From Bryopsis sp. KO-2023 (Eukaryota; Chlorophyta; Ulvophyceae; Bryopsidales; Bryopsidaceae): a stretch of DNA of 64,000 bases. The first letter of the stretch is position 1, and each line of letters begins with the position of its first letter. Below are positions 28,326 to 64,000 of the stretch, piece after piece. The DNA lies in the NCBI GenBank assembly GCA_030272585.1, contig BSYQ01000004.1, forward strand, positions 3,100,001 through 3,164,000, read 5' to 3'. The translations under genes and the position numbers were made by a program. The notes beneath the pieces are model-generated. The model ran no database searches and was not told the DNA's origin. It saw only the letters and a program-made list of their open reading frames with translations.

Positions 28326-31300
28326 GGCTCTCCTTCGAACGTTTTCATCGTCTTGCCGCCGACCCTCACTGGCCTGGGTCGGAAGGAGCGCTGCAGTCCA
28401 TCGCAAATCCCAACCGTCCATCGCCCCTCGCTACCGTGTTCCTGAACGTGCATTCGCTGCAAGGCTTCCTTTTTCGACGCGAGTGGGATGTTCGGTGGGG
28501 CAAACCCAGGTCGCGACTCCGCAGCATCAACAGACTCTCGGCTCTGAGGCCGACGGGAACGGGGCTGAAGGAAAAGCAAAGTCGACGGCCTATCCTTTTA
28601 CTGAAGTGGAGGAGAAATGGCAGGCATACTGGGCAGAAAACAAGACTTTCAGAACTCCGGAAGATGTGGACATGACTAAACCCAAATTCTATGTGCTGGA
28701 TATGTTTCCTTATCCAAGGTGAGCAATGCAAAATCCAATGATAACATCTTTTCCTTTCCCATATTTTTTCTCTGGACAAAAAACTATCATGCACCCTGAC
28801 CACAAAATTGAAAAATGGAATCATGAGGGGATAAAGTGAGGTTGGCATGTGTTTACTGGGATTTTTTTTCTCTTAAAAATCGCCTTTTTGTGGGGGATAC
28901 TTTTTTGCAGTGGATCTGGATTGCACGTTGGACATCCAGAAGGTTACACTGCAACAGACATCATCGCTCGCTACAAGCGAATGAAAGGATTCAATGTGTT
29001 GCACCCAATGGGCTGGGATGCGTTCGGATTACCTGCCGAGCAATATGCCCTCCAGGTGAAAATCTGGAAACCCACGACTGACTCAAGATTTCATTGCGCA
29101 TCCGATGTTTTTATTCTGTTGAAACTTGAACCTTGATTTCTGGTTTCAATGCAATGCATGCATGCCACAAATTCCCAGCATCGATGGGATTTTTGGCCAT
29201 TGTTGTTAGTGATATAACGGAATCTGTTTTGATGTTGATTGGATGTGCAGACGAACACACACCCTCGAGTAACCACCGAGAAGAATGTGAACCGATTCAG
29301 GGAGCAGCTCCAGTCCTTGGGATTTTCCTACGATTGGGATCGAGAAATTGCCACCACCGACCCAAATTACTACAGGTGTGTTTTTTTGTTTCTTTACAGG
29401 TGTTTTTTTTCGCCCGAGAAATAAATTTCACGAGTTGTTCGTGTGAACCTCTGCTTTAATGGTTCAAAGGATAGGAGCTGGCTTACATAGTCCCCCACCC
29501 CCGCTCCCACCCCCGGGGTTATGATGGTTTGTCTGTATATTTGACTTGTTTTGCTGGGCTCAGGTGGACCCAGTGGATTTTCTTGCAGCTGTTCGAACGT
29601 GGGTTGGCATACCAAGCTGAGGTCCCCGTGAATTGGTGCCCTGCCTTAGGTAATTTTCAACCTCTCGAATCTGTTGTTGATCACCGACAGCAGCTTCTCA
29701 TCTCTGGAGGGCCCCAATGAAAAAATTGAAACCAAAACCAAAGAAAAAAAAAGCGGAATAGAAACAACACAAAGAAAAGGCATCGAGGTGTTCTGACGAT
29801 CGAACAGTGTGGAATAATTGAGCCTTTGGGATTTGTGGTGAGGAAGAAGAAAAAAGCAACATATGCACGCGAAAGAGAGAAACTTCGCCTTCATATATAT
29901 ATATATATATATATATATTTCAAGAGAGAGAGGAGTGCATGTGTGTGGGGAGGGGAGAAGAGTGAGAAAAGAGTGAGGATTTGGCTGGGTTGTGTATGCA
30001 AAACTTTGTTGGGATTTTTTGCAGGGACGGTTTTGGCCAATGAGGAGGTCATCGACGGAAAGAGCGAGAGGGGGGATCACCCCGTTTTCCGACTCCCCAT
30101 GAAACAGTGGATGTTGAAAATCACAGCATATGCAGACAGATTGTTAGAGGATCTGGATGATTTGGATTGGTCTGACAGCATCAAACAGATGCAACGAAAC
30201 TGGATTGGACGATCGGAGGTGTGCGAACAACGGAGGCCTTTTTCTTGGGCTTTTTCTTCCAAAAACATTCTCACACCCCTGCTGTATGGGTGGATTTATT
30301 GAGGAAAAATATCGAAAAAAATGGAATTTTGTAATTGGGAAACAAAAAAGAGAAGCGTACTCCAAACCATTCCTTGTCTTTTTCATTTGTTCACTAACTA
30401 TTGTAATTTTTTTCCAATTTATATTATTTATTTTTTTAATCATTTTTATATGATATATTTCGACATTGTATTTGACTGGAAATGTGCAAACTACGTTCAG
30501 GGTGCAGAAATTTTTTTCGAGGTGCTACCAGGAGAGGGCTCCAAAATGGAAAGCGGAGCCAAATTGGAGGTTTACACCACCAGGCCGGACACTTTGTTCG
30601 GAGCGACTTACATGGTGGTGGCTCCGGAACATCCCTCGTTGAGCGATTTGGTGTCGGCAGAAAAAAGGGAAGAAGTCGAACAGTATGCAGAAAAGGCAGC
30701 CAGAAAGTCTGACTTGGAAAGAACGGAGCTCCAGAAAGAAAAATCTGGCGTTTTCACTGGTGGGCCATCGTTTCATTTTGACCGAGTTCTTGAAACAGGA
30801 TGAATCATGCTCGGCAGCTTCTTTGTCACTTCTCTTCCCGACTCCTTTCTCAAACAGCTCGACTGGAAAGATTAACTAATCCGTTAAGGAATTTGTTTTT
30901 TCTTAAACAAATTTCCAAATCTTTTTCGTCTGAACGTGTTTCTCAATAAACTTTTTCGATAGCAGGATTTTTCTGTCAGGCTTTTTTCCGCTCAATTCCC
31001 TTTTTTTTTAATTATTATTGAAGAGATTGTTTTTGGGCAGGCAGTTGGGCATTGAATCCAGCAACCGGAGATCGAATTCCCATCTGGGTGGCGGACTACG
31101 TTTTGGGGGGCTATGGAAGCGGAGCCATCATGGCAGTCCCAGCACACGATTCTCGAGACTTCGAATTTGCAAACACTTTTGATTTGCCAATCACCCCCGT
31201 AATCAGCGGGAGCGAACAAGAAGCAGACTTGCCATTCACCGGTAATTCATTTGCTGTTTTTTTGCTGTTTTTTTGCTGTTTTTTCCCCCTTTTCCCGGGG

Positions 31301-34300
31301 TCAATTTTCTATGTGTTGCAGCAAAAACAAAAAGGAACACATGCCTTAAATGGCAGAAGGAGTTCGTTATTGATGGTTGAGTTTTTGTGTGGATGCAGGT
31401 GCTGGGGTGAATGTGAATTCGTCGAACGAAGCCAGCGGTTTGAACATCGATGGAATGGGCACAGAGGAGGCACAGCAGAAAGTGCTACAATGGTTGGAAT
31501 CCAAAAACATTGGATCGAAAAAAGTGAACTACAAGCTGAGGGACTGGCTGTTCGCCCGACAGAGATACTGGGGGGAGCCCTTCCCAATTCTGTACCCAGA
31601 AGGATCTGAGGTAAAAAACAAAAACTAAGAGAGAAAAGGGATACCTTTTCTTGCCAAAGGGAAGAAACACACACACACACACACACACTTTGACAATACC
31701 AGAAAGCGTGGAATGCTGTGGTGCTAACCAAGATTACCATTGTTCAACCAAGCGTCTTCTACTATTATTACTTTCTTTTTTAGGGGGTGGATCAGGGTCT
31801 CGTTCAGATCATCACAAGCAGATTTGGCATATTGACGAGGTTTTAACAATTTTCCCCAAGTCTCACCAATATTTGTCATTTTCCAATTATTCAGGAGCCA
31901 GTTGCAGTCCCGGAGGACCAACTGCCTTTAACCTTACCAGACACCGACACCTTCAAACCCAGCGGCACCCCCGAATCCCCGCTGGCGAACATCACAGATT
32001 GGGTCGAGACCACCGACCCCAAAACGGGCCGACCAGCTAGGAGGGAGACCTCCACCATGCCACAATGGGCCGGCTCTTGCTGGTATTATTTGAGATTCAT
32101 CGACCCTGATAACATTACGGCCCCGATCGATCCCGAGAAGGAAAAGTACTGGATGCCCGTGGATCTGTACATTGGCGGAGCCGAACATGCGGTCCTGCAT
32201 TTGCTGTACGCCAGATTTTGGCACAAGGTGGGATTCTAATTCGGGTCATTTCAGAAGGCCAAAAAAAGAAAATGTATTTTTGTGGATTGGTGTAGGCTGG
32301 ATCAAATTTCAAACCAAATGTCGTTTTTTTTTTGTCATGAGGTGGGATGGGGAGGGGGCCGGATGAATGGTTTTTGTTTTGATCAGGTTCTATACGATTT
32401 GGGGGTGGTTACCACGAAGGAGCCCTTCGGCAAATTGGTCAGCCAAGGTATGATTTTGGGCGAAGTCGAATACTCCGTCTTCAAGAATTCGCAAGGAGAA
32501 TACGTCAAAGAAAAGGATGAGGGCGCCGAGGCGATCAGGTGATATTCAACTGTCAACTTGTTTTTGTTTTTTTTTCCTTTTTAAGATTTTGAGCTTTTTG
32601 GTGCGTGCGAATGAAAGATTTGTACATATATTTCCCGTTCAGTTTCTTTTATCATCGAACATTCTTCCAGCATGTGTGGGGATGACTATTTCCTCAACTG
32701 TTATTTTGATCGCATGAACTTTCCGCTTCTGTTTTCTTTTCCACTTGTTGGGTAAGGGGAAAGGGGTAAGTACGTCAAATTCTCAAATGCTTTGATTTTT
32801 TTTTTTGTTCGAGCAAATCGTTGATTGAGATTTTTTTTCGTTGGTGGTCGATGACAGTGTGGAAGCGTCTGACGTGGAGAAAAAAGGAGATGGTTACGTG
32901 TTGAAATCGAACCCCGAAGTGTCGGTAGCGGCTCGGGTTTTTAAAATGAGCAAGAGCAGAGGCAATGTGATCAACCCGGACGACATCGTGATGCAGTACG
33001 GTGCCGATTCCCTCAGGCTCTACGAAATGTTCATGGGGCCCCTGATCGACACAAAGGTGAGTCCAGCATTCGACTGTTGTTTCGCCGCCAAGGTTTAGCT
33101 TTGAAAATCTTATCACGATTCTCACTGCTTCCATCGAGAAAGAACAAACAGACAAACAAATATGAACTCTAGTAACCCAAAAAATAGCGCACCGAAGGTA
33201 GAGGGAGCATTTTTGGAGAGGAGGGGGCGGCGGCGGCTCGATTCTGTCATCGATGGATGTTTTTTCATGATAGGTTGATTTGTTTTGATTTTTCAATGCA
33301 CGTCCGGTTCACTCATTGCATGTTGATAGTGTGTAGATTTGGAGCACTCGCAGCGTGGAGGGCGTCCATCGCTTCCTGGCCAGAGTCAATCGCCTCTTTG
33401 AACAGGGATGCACAGATGACCCTCCGAGCGACGACCAATTGAGACTCCTTCACACGACCATCAAAAAGGTGATTTCTGAGATGTGATCACGGGGGCTGCA
33501 ATTCTTTCTTCTACGGGTTTGATTTTTGAAATGTGATCATGGGGGCTGCAATTCTTGTTTCTACGGGTTGGATACCGTTTCAAAAGTCGATTTTTGGCTG
33601 AGTCGATCCATCCAACTGCTGTAGGTTTCAGAAGACACTGAGGAACTTCGTTTCAACACGGCGATCTCGTCCATGATGGAATTCTCCAATGGAGCGACAA
33701 AATGGAAAAATCGGCCGCGAGCTGCCCTGGAGCCTTTCGTGAAACTGCTGTCACCCTATGCCCCCCATCTGGCCGAGGAGCTGTGGAGCAACTTGGGCCA
33801 CCCCGACAGCCTGGCGTACGAGGATTGGCCTATCTGGGAGGAGAAGATTTTGGAGGTATGCTTCCAATCTACGTTTGATGCTGGACGGAACTCAAATGGA
33901 ATCTGGGAGGGTTGAGTTTCATTTATTTGAGGTCCTGTGACACCATCTTCGGGTCAGCACCCATCGATAGAAATGCCTCGGCTGTTTCTGCTGGTTTCTG
34001 GCTGAGGGCAGTCTCAAAAGCAAACGTGCCCACATGAGCAAACCCCCTGCTATTTCTTCCTTCCTTTTTCATTTTGAAAAGAACCCAATTGCCAATCTCA
34101 ACATGCATTTATGTGGTGTTTGTTTGTTTGTCTCTTCTGCTATACCTGGAAGAAAGGTGTGCTTCGTTTGGCAAGGCTTTTCTGTGGCTTTTTCGTTAAT
34201 CATGGTGGTTATTCAATTTTGTCCCAGGTGCAAGTGGTAAAGATTGCGGTGCAAACCAATGGCAAAATGCGAGGGATGATTGAGATCGGGAAAGACGAGG

Positions 34301-36231: not shown

Positions 36232-39200
36232 TCAGCCAACGAAATCCCCATCGTCAGCATTCATGGCATCATCCAGATATTCGTCCAGATCATCCATGAA
36301 ACCTTTGGGAGCCATGGGGAGGCGTCTGGCCTCTTGGACGATGGCCTCGATTTCTTCCAGCGTCTTAAGCAAAACGAGGATCAAAATTAGTTGGTTTTTT
36401 CTTCAGGACACGACGGATTTTTACTCCCCCCCCCAAAAAATCTAACATGGAGGAAATCGGAACAGCAAACATCAAAATCATTCACCACAAAAAGATCCGA
36501 TAACTTTATTTCTTTCCCCTATGTATGTAGTACATCTCCTTTTTCCCACTTTTCAGCTTTTCCTTGAACTAGTCATCATTCCCCCCCCCTGAAATTCACT
36601 CACCTGCAATCCATCATGAGGAATGACGAGATTGTTGTTCATTTCTTTCACCCCGGGGGGCAGATTCTTCATGTACCAGGGATGAGATTGAATGCCCCCA
36701 ATGGAAATTCGCTTGTGGGGCTCCCGGACGAGGATTTTCGAGAGCAAATCCTGACAGTCGTCCGATAAATGCACGTGGGGTGGGAAGGCCACGTCCACGC
36801 GCAATATTCTTTGAATCATTTTTTGCAGTTTCTGATTGTCGTGCTTGTCTTCCGGTCGCTCGAAAGGGTAGGCACCCACCAGCATCACGAACAGCATCAC
36901 TCCACATGACCAGATGTCGGCAATCTGCAGAAAAAAAAACAGTTCTTCAAATACATATATATATAAAGATAAAGAGGATACATCTATATATATAGATACA
37001 CACACACATATATATAGATGTATCTTCTTTATCTTTTTATGTATCTTTGTTTTAAAAAGAAAATATATTGACCTCAGTTGAGCAAGTTTGCCTGGTGCAA
37101 TTTAAGCATTCGTTAATTTTTTCCTTCGATAAAACATACATATTGCTATATTTCTCTCTCTTTTTTGGGGAGGAGGGGGGGTGGGGAAGGATGGGGGGAG
37201 GAAAAGAATGACACATAAAAGAGGGATGCCACCGGGAAAATGGTTTTCGATCTGTAAACCCCCCCAATTTGATCAACACCAAACAAAAAAGGGGAGGGGG
37301 GGGATGGGGCCAAGTAACAATTCCTTTTAAACCCATCCGATGACTTCCACAATAGAGAGACGCCTGAAATTGGAAATTGAAATTCTGTTTTTTTTTACCT
37401 TTCCATCATACTTCTTCCCCGTGGTGGTGAGAATCACTTCAGGGGCCAGATAAGCAGGGGTACCCACTCGGGATCCAGGGGCTGACTGGAATTTCTCATT
37501 CTGAAAATCAACAAGGCGAAAAAAAAAGCGACAGGGAAAATTAATCACCACCCCTTCAACCCACGTGGGGACTATTTTTCTCGATCGAACGCTTCGCTTT
37601 CAAACACACCTGGCATATCGTAGAGAGTCCGTCGCTCTGGAGTCGTTTTTTCGTCGCTTTTTCGTCATTTTTACGTCGCTTTTTCGTCATTTTTACGTCG
37701 TTTTTACGTTCGATTTTTTGACCCCCTTCCCTCTGTCAGTCCGTGGTCAGTAGGAATTTTCATTTCGATATCCTAGGTTCGTCTAAAGGTTTTGGAGGAT
37801 TGGGGTTTTCCAAATATTTTTTCTTGTTTTTTTTTCAGAACGAAAATATAAACAGCCCCACCTTGGCATCATACACATCTTCTTCAATGATCTCTGGGGC
37901 TATGTAAGATGGAGTGCCGACCTTGGATTTTGCTATCGACTGCCAGGTGTCACTCTGCACAAGGGCTTTCGATGTCGGCCTCGACAATTCTAATTAAACA
38001 AATAACTGGGGAAAAAAAGGATGAAAAAAAAAAAAATCTCTGTACAATGCTTCCGAATCTCCCCCGCCCCCGAAACTAGAACATATAATTCCACCCTTCG
38101 TTCATTTTTGCCTTGAACAAAAGAAAAAGGAACTCGGTGCTGAGAATAAGAGATCTTCGCGCAATTGAAAAAAATGGTGCTGTCGAGGTGATAGCCCCAT
38201 TGACTAAGCATTGAATTTGCAAGCTAAATATATCTGCCAGTATGGACTTAGCGTCAAATCACCGGCAGAGAAGGGGAATTCAAAGATTTGTCATGTATTG
38301 GTGCATACATTAGGAGTTCGAGGGGCTTTGCTACTGATATCGCTACGTAGCATCGTTTTTAAAACGACATACATTTCTATACACGCGTGTGTTTCGGAAA
38401 AGAAATTCCTGGGTCAAATGTCTAAGCAGTCTATCATTCTTCAACAAACGAGGTGCAGAAAAAAAAAATTAAAAAGTCAAAAATCCTGCTGGAAGAGTGC
38501 TGAAAATGTCTGATCATTTGCAAACATTTTTCACCAATCGACGCCGCCACTTTGCTGCTTTTTTTTTGTAATTGTCATCCTAATTTTCAAACACTGAGGT
38601 TTTTTCTCCAGCGAGCAATTGTCTCGGTAACTTGGGCTGTGAACCCCTCCGTGCATTACCTTTGAATACCCGAAATCGCAAATTTTCAGCAGTGGCCTCA
38701 AACTACCATCCAAAAGGGTGTTCTCCAATTTGATGTCTCTATTCGCCACACCCTGAGCAACAAAAATGATCATCATCTTTCAATTGCTTGTACATCTTTC
38801 TGTAAGCCTCATGAATGTATGTCCCATTTATCTAGTTTTTTTTATCTTCTTTTAATCATTTGAAGTGTTAAAAGGGCTCACAAGATGCTTTCTTGCATTT
38901 CCCTGTTAAAGCTTTTTTTCTGCCAATCAATTTCATCCCAGACCCTTCATATTTGAATTTTTGAACAAGAAAAATTCACAAAGTATGCTAACTCCTGGAG
39001 CCAAAACTTAGTTTCGTATTTCTTCTCTCCTTAGAATTCCATTACAAGCTTTTTTTTTTGGTGTTTTTTTTTGGGTGCATATCCTCACCATTCTGTGGCA
39101 ATAATCGATGGACACGATCAACTGTTGAAAGAACCACCGGGCTTCGTCTTCTTTGAGGCCGTTTTTCCTCACCACGTATTCAAACATATCGCCCCCGGGA

Positions 39201-41744: not shown

Positions 41745-43341
41745 TCAGCCTTCCATCTGGTTAAGCCGACCGGTGCGTAATTCTGCCCTAGTTTGCATTT
41801 GCATCCTGGAGCAGTTTGGATCCCCTGGAGCACAAGAATTGAACTGTTCTCGAAATGACGGCCTCTGGTTGCGTGGCTGATCTCCTTGCTGAGAATCGCC
41901 AGAGAAACCTTGGTTCAATTCATCCACCTGTAATGCAGCAGCATACCCATCCATACAAAGAATGAAAAAACGACACATTAATACATGTGTTTTGAATTTT
42001 TTTGGAATGGAATGCATGGAGGATGGAGCATCAAAATCTCATCTAGAAATGGTGTGTGTTGTGTTGTGGGGGGTGGGGGGCAGGGAGTCACCCCAAAGCA
42101 AAACTATTGCAAACAGTACAAAAAAAATTGAGTACTGATGCAAGAAAAACAAGCCTTGACCGGGTATTTCAATCGGACAGTTCCCTACTTCAGTACCTGA
42201 GCAAGGTGATTATTGTTGGGTTCTTGAAGCCCATTTTGGCTTTCAGTGACCCATTGGTTGTTCTGGTCATTAGACTGATCACGATACATCCCCGCATCAT
42301 GGGTGGAAAACATCTGCAGGTGGTTATCCATATAGGGCTCAAAATACGGCTCTGGGCTGGGCTGATGATAAGCACCACATTCACAGACATCATCCGCCGC
42401 ACACCCAAAGTTCTGCGTGTAGTAGTGCGACCCTTGCTGAGACCAGGAGCACCCGATGCCGAGCAGGTTGTAATTGCAGTTCATCACGTTTTTTCTGTGG
42501 GTGGGTGAACACATCCAGGCCATGACGACCTCTTTGGCAGACTCGTATCCGACTGCTACGTTCTCTCCGATTTTTCCCCAGTCGAATCCTGCACGATCCA
42601 CTCTGATGCCGAGCGATGATCCATCCGATCCTGAGTGAGACATCTGGTCCAACCTCGCTTGATCATCGGAGTGCAGCTGGGCCACTTGCGTCAGGGTGCC
42701 GTGCACTTTCAAGGGAGGATAGTTTTTGCCCACGACCTCATGCTGCAGAAGAATCATCAGCATCATCACCCCAGTGTCAGTCAGAGAGAGAGCTGCACTG
42801 CTGACTGTTCAAAAAGGTGGAGAAGAGCCTTACCCTCCAAGAGTCATAATGGCATGGATAATCTCCTGCATATTTGTCCGGGTTTTGTCGAACTGAATTT
42901 GTGCACTCCAGTACCTACATCCACAGATTTGGTTGCGTTGTGAAGGAGAGGAGCACTAGCATTGGAAAGAGCAGATTATTTTAGTCACGCTGCCACTCCA
43001 AAAACCAGAAAAGCATAGCACACCGATTGCTGCATTGATTGACTTGCACCCCTTGTCAGAATTCAACACTGATGGCCTCCCACCGCATTCACGCTGTCGT
43101 CCGACTCCGAGCAGCCCCCCTGCGATTGGAGTTTTCTCCTTGCGTTCGATTGTGTCGGGTGGTGTTGGTTCAGCTGGGATGCCCCGTTATTGCGTGTGAT
43201 AAAAATTCCAACTCCTATTGCCTTCAGGTGCTCGCTCGAATCACCTTCACTGGCTAGACTTCTCCCGTGACACTGCACCGAGAAGGAAAGGGCTGTCAGA
43301 GCCCACGTCACGAGAAGTGCAGATTGGAGCTGCGCCACCAT
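41745..43341 (-). CDS. Secreted CAP-superfamily (SCP/PR-1-like) protein
   Basis: Extracellular CAP-fold protein of unknown activity. Four exons (43084-43341, 42834-42914, 42197-42742, 41745-41927) give 355 residues with consistent phases. The ATG at 43341 starts a clear signal peptide (MVAQLQSALLVTWALTALSF). A Ser/Gly-rich stretch of about 60 residues follows, then the CAP domain from ECTNSVRQNPDKYAGDYPC. Conserved CAP elements are VAQLHSDDQARLDQMSHSG, the GENVAVGY motif, WMCSPTHRKNVMNCNYNLLG and YYTQNFGC. The DGSSLGIRVDRAGFDW spacing is like algal and bacterial CAP proteins rather than land-plant PR-1. After the domain comes a polar, Asn/Gln-rich tail of about 110 residues with one Cys pair (CAPGDPNC). 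Confidence 0.93.
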
Positions 43342-59038: not shown

Positions 59039-60462
59039 CTAGCGCTTAAAATACTGACGTAACCTATCATGATGAAACACTCCCTTTATCTTAACCCCTT
59101 CAATGGTTTCCAATTCAAACAAACGATTCCCTTTCTTTTGCCGAACCCGATATGGTCCCTTCCATTTCGGCTCAAACTTCTGACCATGAACACCATCTCC
59201 AAGGTTATTTCTAACCAAAACCAAACCCCCATTCACAATTTCTTTTTCCAAAAACTTCTGGGGATCCAATTCTGTTACTTGCTTTTCTCCCATTTGCTTT
59301 TCCAGATCACGAATCTTTCTTCTAATTTCCAAAACATCCACTTTCTTTCCCTGTGCATTTTTACCCAATAAAATTTCTCTGGGAGAAAACCCCAAAACAC
59401 TTGAACGAGAATCCCTCATCAGCTCAACTGCCTTAGTTACGAATTCCGACCACCTCGATTTATCCTTCCAACACATGCGCTGCAGTCGATGCACGAGCGT
59501 CTGATTCGCTCTTTCTACTCTACCATTTGATTTTGGCGAGTACGAACTGATCTCTACCTTTTCAATTTTTTTCTCGGTCAGATACTTGGCAAAATACGAG
59601 CTGCCAAAAGCTCCTCCATTATCGCCCATCAGCGACTCAATGCGGCCCCACTTGTGCCTCCAAGCTTCCACGAAATGAACAAGCTGATCACTGGTCGCAC
59701 TGGACACCGGTTTCGCTTCTATCCAACGCGAAAAGAAGTCTACACCCACCAAAATGTATTTGTGCACGCCGCTAATATCCAGGGGTCCCACAAAATCCAC
59801 CGCCACCACTTGCATAGGTCGATCTGTAGGAATCGACAAGCTGGAGGCAGTCTTCCTCAATTTCCCAAACCGCTGGCACGTGTCACAAGTACGGCAGTGT
59901 GCCTCTGCATCCCTTCGCATATCTGTCCAAAAAAAGGAGCGACGCATCCTCTCCAAGGTTTTCTCAACACCAAAGTGTCCAGCTTTATCGTGGCACGTTT
60001 CCAAAACCGTCTTGACCATACTGCGCGGAACCACCACTTTATAATCCGAATCTACCCATTTCTGCAACATTCCATTTTTCCAAGTCATCTGATGCTTGTG
60101 GCACAATTGAGCTGCACGTAAAAAATCCTTCCATTGCTCTTCCTTTTCCAATTCCTTTTTCAAACACAACTCCTGATTTCCAGCTTCCACAGGGCAAACC
60201 TCCGAACGCTGAACGAGATAACGTTGGCGAGATAACAAATCCGCCAAAAAATTCTCCTGGCCCGCAATATGGTGCACACGTAGAGGATACACAAAAAGAT
60301 CTTGCACTTGAGCCAATTGGCGACGGATAAAGTCGGTAGAAGACGTAGCCGAAAACAGCGCCACCACCGTTCGATTATCAGTGTAGATATCGAATTTCTG
60401 GTTAATCAAAAAGGCTCGAAGGGCCGTGACCGCTCTGCAAAAACCCCGCAGCTCCGAAACCA
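59039..60462 (-). pseudogene. Retroelement pol remnant: RNase H end plus integrase
   Basis: One uninterrupted frame with a stop at 59039. It begins inside the RNase H domain (FDIYTDNRTVVALF ... RVHHIAGQENFLADLLSR). A linker and the H2C2 zinc-binding integrase N-terminus follow (CHDKAGHFGVEKTLERM ... CRTCDTCQRFG), then the rve catalytic core with its DDE acids (VVAVDFVGPLD, MGDNGGAFG, NGRVERANQT). The end is a typical gypsy integrase C-terminus (KFEPKWKGPYRVRQKKGN). No chromodomain is seen. Protease and reverse transcriptase are absent, so it cannot be autonomous. The intact frame suggests recent insertion or deletion. The upstream ATG that opens this frame lies in the LTR and is fortuitous. 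Confidence 0.9.
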
Positions 60463-60612
60463 TATCAAACAACGAAGTAAACAGCTGCTTACATTGAATC
60501 AAAGTACCTTCGTTCTTTTAACCACAACCATGTTTGATCTATCCCATGTTCTAATCCCATAAGATGACCCCGTCTAATCAATCACGAGCTACCTTCCCAT
60601 CAATTCTGACAC
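60463..60612 (-). repeat. 5' LTR segment, truncated and fused to pol
   Basis: The same 150 bp as at 58883-59032. On the minus strand it ends TTTGATA and then passes directly into RNase H coding sequence (MVSELRGFCRAVTAL). Confidence 0.9.
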
Positions 60613-62259: not shown

Positions 62260-64000
62260 CTACCTCTCCTTGGAAGTACTGTCCGAATGTGAGTCTGACC
62301 CCGAAGCTATTTCGGTGTCAAAGTGGATATCGCTCCGTTCACTGGAATCATTTTCTTCCTCCTCCTCCTCCTCAATTTCAATGCTGCTCAGAACTCGGAT
62401 CAGGGGCGACCTTTTCAGACCTGTGGAGGTGGTGGTTTCCAGGGGATTGTTCCGGTTTTGCAGATCTTCCCTCAGGCGTTTGTCCCTGTAGTCGCCCACG
62501 ATTCGACTGAAAGAAGCCAGCCATCCCCCCTCCTTGAACGACAGGGCACGCAGTAAAGACGCGACGGGCTTGCTGCCATGGTTCGAGATCTGAAACAGGA
62601 ATTCTTCAGCGAAAATGGGACGTGCGTGTGTACATTCTCAAACTGGGGTGCGGGTTACACACATTGAACGGAACTGCCGGTCAAAGCCGGTCACGAAAAC
62701 GACCACGCCGCCATGCCCCTCTTCCCCATCTGTAGCTCGTACCTGTGCATCCATGATCTGAGCTGTCTCTTCATTGTCCCCGCGAAACAGCTTCCCCATG
62801 AAAGTCGTAAAAAATCGTCGTTCAGCCTCGCTAGCCGACGCCAGCCATTGCGCCATCGGGGCTCTGTCCCTCCAGTTCAACACTCTGTACACAGGCAGGG
62901 GCTCCACCTTGTTCGTGAGGTAGAAATCGCGAAACAAGGTGGTGGCGAACTCGCAGAAAGTATGTCTGGCTTCTTCGTCGGCGACGGCAAGGAAATCGAT
63001 CAGTTCAGGAAACCGGTCCACCAGCTTCCTCCAAAACTTTGCGACCGAATCCAAGGAGAGAAACGACGTCGGGCACTGGTCTGACATCTGGTCCTTCAGC
63101 ATGTTGGTGAGGGTGTCCCAGTCGTCGATGCACTCTGGCCTGTTGCGCAACGCTCGGTAGATGAAGCCGGCGTCGAAAGTTTGCAACAGTTCGACGCTCA
63201 CCTGAAACCGTGCCAAGAAAACCCCACCATATCCAGTCTGCATGCATTCATCTCCAGATTCCCAACAAACTACTGCAGGTTCGACGAACCTCATCCAGCG
63301 CTTCACGATACTCGAACGACATCGCTTTCAGCAGTCCTAGGGCTGCGGGCACTTCGACGGATCCTTTTCGTCTCAAAATCTCCATGCAATGCATCCGTTT
63401 CACGGAAAATCTCTGGTACTTTCTTACCACTTCCACGACAAAAAAGATGAAAAACACAACAAACAGCGCAAACATGATGGACAAAACGATCCACTCGAGG
63501 ATGACCCGGTTGGCTTGGGGAAGGTTGCTGCTGTAAAACATGACCCCTCCGAACGATTCAAACATCAGCGTCACCAGCAGAAAACTGAAGAGGATATCGA
63601 GACTGGTGTCGACGTACGGCGCCGTGTACACTTGCAACATGAGGGATGCATTAATGACGATGGCCAGCGCACCCGCCTGGAATGCCGGGTTGCTCAGAAA
63701 CGTGAGCACCATAACGAACACCAGTCTTCTCACGAGGATGACGATCGGCGTCCAGTAGTACTCCAGCTCGAATCGACGGTACAGAAACCCATAGCGGCGG
63801 AGGTTTGCTGGCTCCTGGAAAGTCATGGCGTTGTGCAGCTGGATCATTTTCCAGGCCACGAAAATGAGGTAGCCCAGGCTGTAGAAAAGAGTCCCGCCGA
63901 CCCCCAGCACCATCAGCCAAGAGTGCTCCGTGGTGTTGCATTCGATGGAGGGCGCTGACCGCAGGACAGACACCCCAGCGATATCTTCGCAGGAGAAGGC
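62260..64000 (-). CDS. C-terminal part of a large algal multi-TM surface protein (continues past the right edge)
   Basis: Three exons are visible: 63290 to beyond 64000, 62659-63201 and 62260-62589, with the stop at 62260. The reading frame is open across the window edge (FSCEDIAGVSVLRSAPSIEC). The first exon has at least five hydrophobic spans: LMVLGVGGTLFYSLGYLIFV, WTPIVILVRRLVFVMVLTFL, AGALAIVINASLML, LFSFLLVTLMFES and LEWIVLSIMFALFVVFFIFF. The pattern of an EC-x-S/TEH loop before the TMs, then FLYRRFELEYYW and a cluster of TMs, is known from large algal and protist proteins annotated as ephrin-receptor-like or cysteine-rich repeat proteins; this assignment is from memory of the pattern. 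A cytosolic domain of about 290 residues follows, partly helical (ECIDDWDTLTNMLKDQM ... VEPLPVYRVLNWRDRAPMAQ), ending in a run of seven Glu and a Ser/Asp-rich tail. Confidence 0.75.

Follow-up and report, generated by a model that had tools for sequence, protein, structure and literature searches.

The genome of Bryopsis sp. KO-2023 contains an SnRK2-type protein kinase gene with two neighboring homologous exons, designated A and B, each of which codes for the segment of the kinase that extends from the DFGYSK motif to the IADIWSCG motif. The gene lies in a 64,000-nucleotide stretch of contig BSYQ01000004.1 (positions 3,100,001 to 3,164,000), which is referred to here as the window and whose position numbers are used throughout. 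The finding of two loop sequences in one gene is real, and it is unusual inside the gene's own family. The most likely single reading, still unproven, is that the two exons form a splicing switch. We favor, at a probability of about one-half, an arrangement in which exon B would be the default loop and exon A a regulated alternative, each giving a full-length kinase with a different activation loop.

Gene structure and possible isoforms

The gene model, which is supported by matches to PDB sequences, runs from start codon to stop codon in nine exons on the minus strand (40168-36232). Each exon has a length that is a multiple of three and is in phase 0, and all introns of the model are GT-AG. 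Exons 1 (40168-40103), 2 (39907-39800), 3 (39577-39503), and 4 (39244-39089) are followed by exon 5 (38752-38660), which ends with DFGYSK and whose donor serves A and B alike. Loop exon A (37954-37862; 93 nt, 31 codons) comes next, followed by loop exon B (37500-37399; 102 nt, 34 codons). The acceptor of exon 8 (36924-36604), which starts with IADIWSCG and has a Pkinase match, is common to both, and exon 9 (36363-36232) ends the gene.

A and B have equal phase at both ends, and every combination of them is in frame, with products of 347 amino acids for A only, 350 for B only, 381 for A plus B, and 316 for neither. The gene model thus confirmed the exon coordinates, the lengths of 93 and 102 nt, the phase, and the isoforms of 347 and 350 amino acids that had been given in a preliminary description of this DNA. 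That description had also stated that use of both exons would duplicate the activation loop, and the 381-amino-acid product would indeed carry two tandem loop segments. When the 1.4-kb A-B region (37300-38700) was used as a DNA query against the 91-Mb assembly (91,088,769 bases in 28 contigs), no match besides the region itself was found, and a collapsed or misplaced copy is therefore unlikely.

The introns on either side of exon B have sequence features of their own. The A-B intron contains an 11-nt tandem repeat (37620-37718), and a 26-nt piece of this repeat had two matches in the A-B intron and, with up to 2 mismatches allowed, none in the rest of the assembly. The intron after B contains an AT-rich near-palindrome with 51-nt arms (36943-37058) and folds with a z of -5.2; stretches partly similar to the near-palindrome occur on the rRNA-gene contig C24, at three sites spaced by 12.45 kb.

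Identity of the kinase and its host

When the A isoform was compared to PDB sequences with phmmer, the top seven among the best 60 of 2,278 matches were to SRK2E, SAPK10, and SRK2I (329.5 to 351.4 bits), and the next match after the SnRK2s, among the same best 60, was to a SNF1-like kinase (185.5 bits). By bit score against solved structures, the kinase domain resembles plant SnRK2 more than SnRK1, SnRK3, or AMPK. The alignment of the A isoform with SRK2E spans residues 10 to 342, past the C-terminal helix and into the acidic tail; the C-terminal region that follows the kinase domain matches SRK2E, and its tail is acidic. This conserved region corresponds to the SnRK2 box. Judged by its sequence, the gene product is an SnRK2-type kinase, for which a role in stress would follow from its family.

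Exon A aligned without gaps to the loop of SRK2E (SnRK2.6) in the phmmer alignment, and the equivalents of both Ser171 and Ser175 of SnRK2.6 are serines in A as well as in B. The preliminary description had recognized a serine at the activating phosphosite of SnRK2.6 in both exons, which proved correct, and moreover for two serines (171 and 175) rather than one. According to the available portion of PMC8080645, activation of SnRK2.6 requires both Ser171 and Ser175, and in vitro Ser171 is targeted by B2 RAFs while Ser175 is preferred by B3 RAFs.

The Bryopsis kinase shares DFGYSK, both activating serines, the C-terminal helix, and the acidic tail with the plant SnRK2s (SRK2E/OST1, SRK2I, and SAPK10). 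It differs from them in that its catalytic loop is NRD instead of HRD, in that the gene has a second loop exon, and in that the B-type loop is three residues longer. The substitution of NRD for HRD, located in the window gene at 38660-38752, also occurs in paralogs L021, L024, L025, L026, L027, L030, L031, L036, and L037, and the HRD catalytic loop is kept in paralogs L022 and L023.

A streptophyte alga had been suggested as the setting for this gene in the preliminary description. This is probably wrong, because a light-harvesting exon from the same genome matches Bry-Lhcb1 (8hlv) at 118 of 119 positions, with 9jzr_d aligning equally well, and this near-identity points to Bryopsis, a giant-celled green alga that belongs to the chlorophytes. 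The chlorophyll a/b-binding family had 107 exon-level matches in the genome, suggesting a large set of light-harvesting genes. Elsewhere in the window, a 492-amino-acid open frame on the minus strand (59042-60517) contains the zinc-binding and core domains of an integrase and probably belongs to a retroelement. A scan of ten open frames gave matches to the leucyl-tRNA synthetase editing domain (31022-31606, plus strand), the CAP family (42188-42808, minus strand), and the TRP channel family (63251-64000, minus strand).

Loop exons across the gene family

From 124 plus 65 genome-wide matches, 20 SnRK2-family loci of this genome were selected by eye and searched, together with the window, for further loops with a loop HMM (6,923 stop-to-stop open reading frames). 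When the loop HMM was trained without A, it still found A at 43.3 bits (i-E, 5.7e-12). In 19 of the 20 family loci one loop was found, with any further match there having an i-E of >1; the other locus, L038, has a single divergent loop that was seen by tblastn rather than by the HMM (the tblastn loop rows are those of the B isoform query). Two loops were present only in the window gene among the window and the 20 family loci. Furthermore, by eye, A and B were the sole same-strand pair within 5 kb among the 65 matches that the A loop and its flanks had across the genome. A search of viral and prokaryote collections (viral and GTDB contigs) for relatives yielded no confirmed match, the 8 pattern matches in GTDB contigs being without homology, and thus no case of conservation of A in another species.

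In paralog L021, the only loop is encoded by a 102-nt exon of its own, bounded by phase-0 introns at the positions seen in the window gene, and both of these positions are also found in L034 and L035. Other members of the family thus likewise have the loop on an exon by itself, as duplication of an exon needs. Strongly diverged loops were seen in L028, L029, and L032, which have GTGSYLPPE, GTDPYLPPE, and GSRGYFAPE, respectively, where VGTP is expected.

The loop encoded by A is identical to that of B at 15 of 31 residues, to L021 at 16/31, to SRK2E at 16/31, and to L022 at 15/31. These near-equal identities favor neither B nor another SnRK2 as the source of A. The loops of B and L021 are identical at 24 of 34 residues.

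Differences between the two loops

The two serines, GTP-Y-APE, and a YD pair are common to A and B. The residues between the two serines are IAK in A and APG in B, and the net charge after APE is -3 in A and +2 in B, which bears out the earlier observation that the residues around the activating serine differ between the exons. Among ten loops compared, including that of SRK2E, the charge after APE was negative in only one besides A (L033; -2). Because A and B retain both serines but diverge in the residues that separate them and in the charge that follows APE, splicing would change recognition. A plausible target of the swap is how upstream kinases, phosphatases, or substrates recognize the enzyme, and the preliminary description had likewise proposed that splicing could switch the controlling kinase or phosphatase.

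Splice sites and the possible fates of exon A

Splice sites were scored with a model built from 44 of 53 script-called family introns (score of ≥55) that were not checked by hand. The sites of exon B are average, with the acceptor at the 57th and the donor at the 52nd percentile of the 44-intron model. Exon A has a strong donor, which is at the 98th percentile and has the top score of the 117 GTs in 39000-36500. Its acceptor is weak, at the 7th percentile of the 44 training acceptors, a score that is equaled or exceeded by 73 of the 146 AGs in 39000-36500. The acceptor tract of A is 47% pyrimidines, and upstream AGs would extend the exon by 11, 25, 35, or 51 nt. Read in the A frame, the 51-nt extension (37955-38005, minus strand) encodes LFV followed by TAA. 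Its acceptor, the rival located before 38005, has a tract that is 95% pyrimidine and a model score of 6.0, compared to a lower quartile of 6.3. Given the weak acceptor, the strong donor, and the stop-adding rival acceptor, A may be a loop exon under regulation, may act as a poison exon, or may be a relic.

It is possible, although somewhat unlikely, that A is a relic, a duplicated loop exon that was formerly used and now has a decayed acceptor, with B alone spliced and A bound to erode. An acceptor that is no better than half of the nearby AGs is consistent with this, as is the fact that all 20 family loci manage without a second loop. The synonymous codon score of A (0.022) is also the lowest of the nine exons (0.218 to 0.324 in the other eight), a value intermediate between the coding expectation and the background, as it was matched or undercut in 11% of coding draws and in 20 of 120 real coding chunks and reached or exceeded in 7% of background. 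However, the weakness of A is not unique, as an AG is equally near upstream at 5 of the 44 training acceptors and the tract of exon 3 is likewise 47% pyrimidines. Furthermore, the donor of A is strong, its frame is open, and its landmark residues are all kept.

Whether A is maintained was also examined by simulated random substitution. At equal nucleotide distance it left a mean of 8.9 identities, and 15 or more in a fraction of 0.00115 of runs. The differences between A and B number 10, 10, and 20 at codon positions 1, 2, and 3, and this concentration at third positions also argues against a relic. All 12 landmark residues were kept in 0 of 200,000 runs, but this test is biased because the landmarks were selected as residues that A and B share. 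A stop-free frame remained in 27% of runs, and the open frame of A by itself says little.

A poison exon appears quite unlikely. According to this explanation, splicing from the acceptor before 38005 to the strong A donor would bring in the in-frame TAA and shut down the kinase message, and the loop portion of A would be a remnant. The pyrimidine-rich tract of the rival acceptor and the stop codon that follows LFV are as expected for such an exon. However, the rival acceptor scores slightly under the training set's lower quartile, and a poison exon offers no reason for the loop residues kept in A. Inclusion of both A and B in most transcripts is very improbable, since a doubled activation segment would be expected to disturb folding of the kinase and none of the 20 family loci has two loops, even though the 381-amino-acid product would be in frame and the A-B intron is of a length ordinary for the family.

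Candidate means of exclusion

The preliminary description had presented A and B as mutually exclusive. The exons are indeed homologous, interchangeable, and in frame, and either one alone gives a full-length kinase. Their mutually exclusive splicing is putative, given that all four exon combinations are in frame, that the acceptor of A is poor, and that a rival acceptor would add a stop.

Several means of enforcing exclusion were considered. Reading frame and nonsense-mediated decay were rejected, as all four combinations are in frame, and so was steric exclusion through a short intron, as the A-B intron is 361 nt. That length, and the location of the nearest AG upstream of B, 51 nt away, do not indicate a distant branch point close to the A donor of the type known from OGDH. 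A search for docking and selector structures gave results that were equaled by 7/60 and 10/60 shuffled sequences. A donor of the minor spliceosome was not apparent among the scored donors when these were compared by eye with the consensus.

The remaining candidate is a predicted RNA helix between the flank of the A donor (37823-37846, minus strand; 16 to 39 nt downstream of the donor) and the acceptor of B (37493-37515, minus strand), where it spans the AG of the acceptor and 8 nt at the start of the exon. In the predicted helix, which is also present in the folded A-B region, 37846-37832 pairs with 37507-37493 and 37828-37823 pairs with 37515-37510. Only 4 of 500 shuffles paired as strongly, for a helix that was chosen for testing after being noticed first. 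The z for pairing between donor flank and acceptor was -2.8 to -2.9, compared to a lowest value of -1.56 in 39 control introns (those of the 44 with a length of ≥180), and neither the gene's 7 remaining introns nor the 14 remaining site pairs had so low a value. Predicted accessibility of the B acceptor was 0.13, the lowest value, compared to 0.18 to 0.64 for the 44 controls, and it was 0.48 without the A-side strand; the acceptor of exon 4, at 0.17, likewise fell under the 44 controls.

Other predictions weakened the case for this helix. When any 40-mer of the upstream intron was allowed to pair, the acceptors of exons 3 and 4 paired more strongly (-26.7 and -26.5) than that of B (-23.6), and 40 control introns (length of ≥150) paired more weakly than B. 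The A-B intron folded no better than shuffled sequences (z, 0.06), and folding of the 481-nt A-B region gave a z of -1.44, with 11 of 100 shuffles as good. The folding predictions are suggestive of a helix between the A-donor flank and the B acceptor that might block joint use of the exons, as a candidate mechanism that is not established.

Proposed mechanism

In the loop-exon switch that we favor, the activation loop is carried on a stand-alone phase-0 exon, of which two diverged copies are present. Average splice sites at both ends would make B the default. A would be kept out by its weak acceptor unless that acceptor is activated; once activated, the strong donor of A would commit it to exon 8. 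Activation would not be lost through the swap, which would instead alter how the enzyme is recognized by Raf-like kinases upstream of it, by phosphatases, or by substrates. Exclusion of one exon by the other might operate through the candidate helix. The complete scenario, in which a mutually exclusive loop swap rewires coupling to upstream kinases, phosphatases, or substrates and is gated by a helix that hides the B acceptor behind the A donor, is unlikely.

Comparison with other alternatively spliced genes

Exon swaps within kinases have been described in other families. The available text of the respective reports indicates that JNK has a swapped exon pair within the kinase domain (PMC8746764) and that FYN has a swapped pair that covers the SH2-kinase linker and the ATP site (PMC9741552). 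As in those portions of the two reports, homologous or alternative exons are found here within one kinase, where a swap would alter activity or partners. By the same sources, the Bryopsis gene differs in that JNK and FYN belong to other kinase families, that the FYN pair is elsewhere in the protein, and that the Bryopsis pair represents the whole DFGYSK-to-IADIWSCG segment with both serines, its exclusivity being putative.

Closer in lineage is the Volvox cyclophilin gene cyn23, for which the accessible section of PMC4378016 describes two adjacent alternative exons that were examined for mutual exclusivity. The chlorophyte lineage and the adjacent alternative exons are shared with Bryopsis, but, as described there, cyn23 does not code for a kinase, both of its exons are 106 nt, and its isoforms differ at 13 positions. 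Exons 4a and 4b of OGDH are, like A and B, a tandem duplicated pair, and according to the abstract and text passages of PMC7969005 their exclusivity is enforced through distant branch points; the Bryopsis gene is unlike OGDH, as described there, in its A-B intron and in the distance of the AG upstream of B. In a review of splicing in microalgae, mutually exclusive exons are among the categories named, with no kinase example of them in its available text, and in the available text of a survey of Chlamydomonas CKIN/SnRK kinases the word "exon" is absent and "splic" occurs once, in an interaction network. No report of an exon swap in the SnRK2 activation loop was found in the titles and abstract openings of the open-licence literature.

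Implications

Activation of SnRK2 is a central step in osmotic-stress signaling in plants, and the variety of SnRK2 kinases is normally spread over many paralogous genes. If the favored reading is true, a single gene in Bryopsis would supply the kinase with either of two activation loops, and splicing would take the place of gene duplication at the switch of the enzyme.
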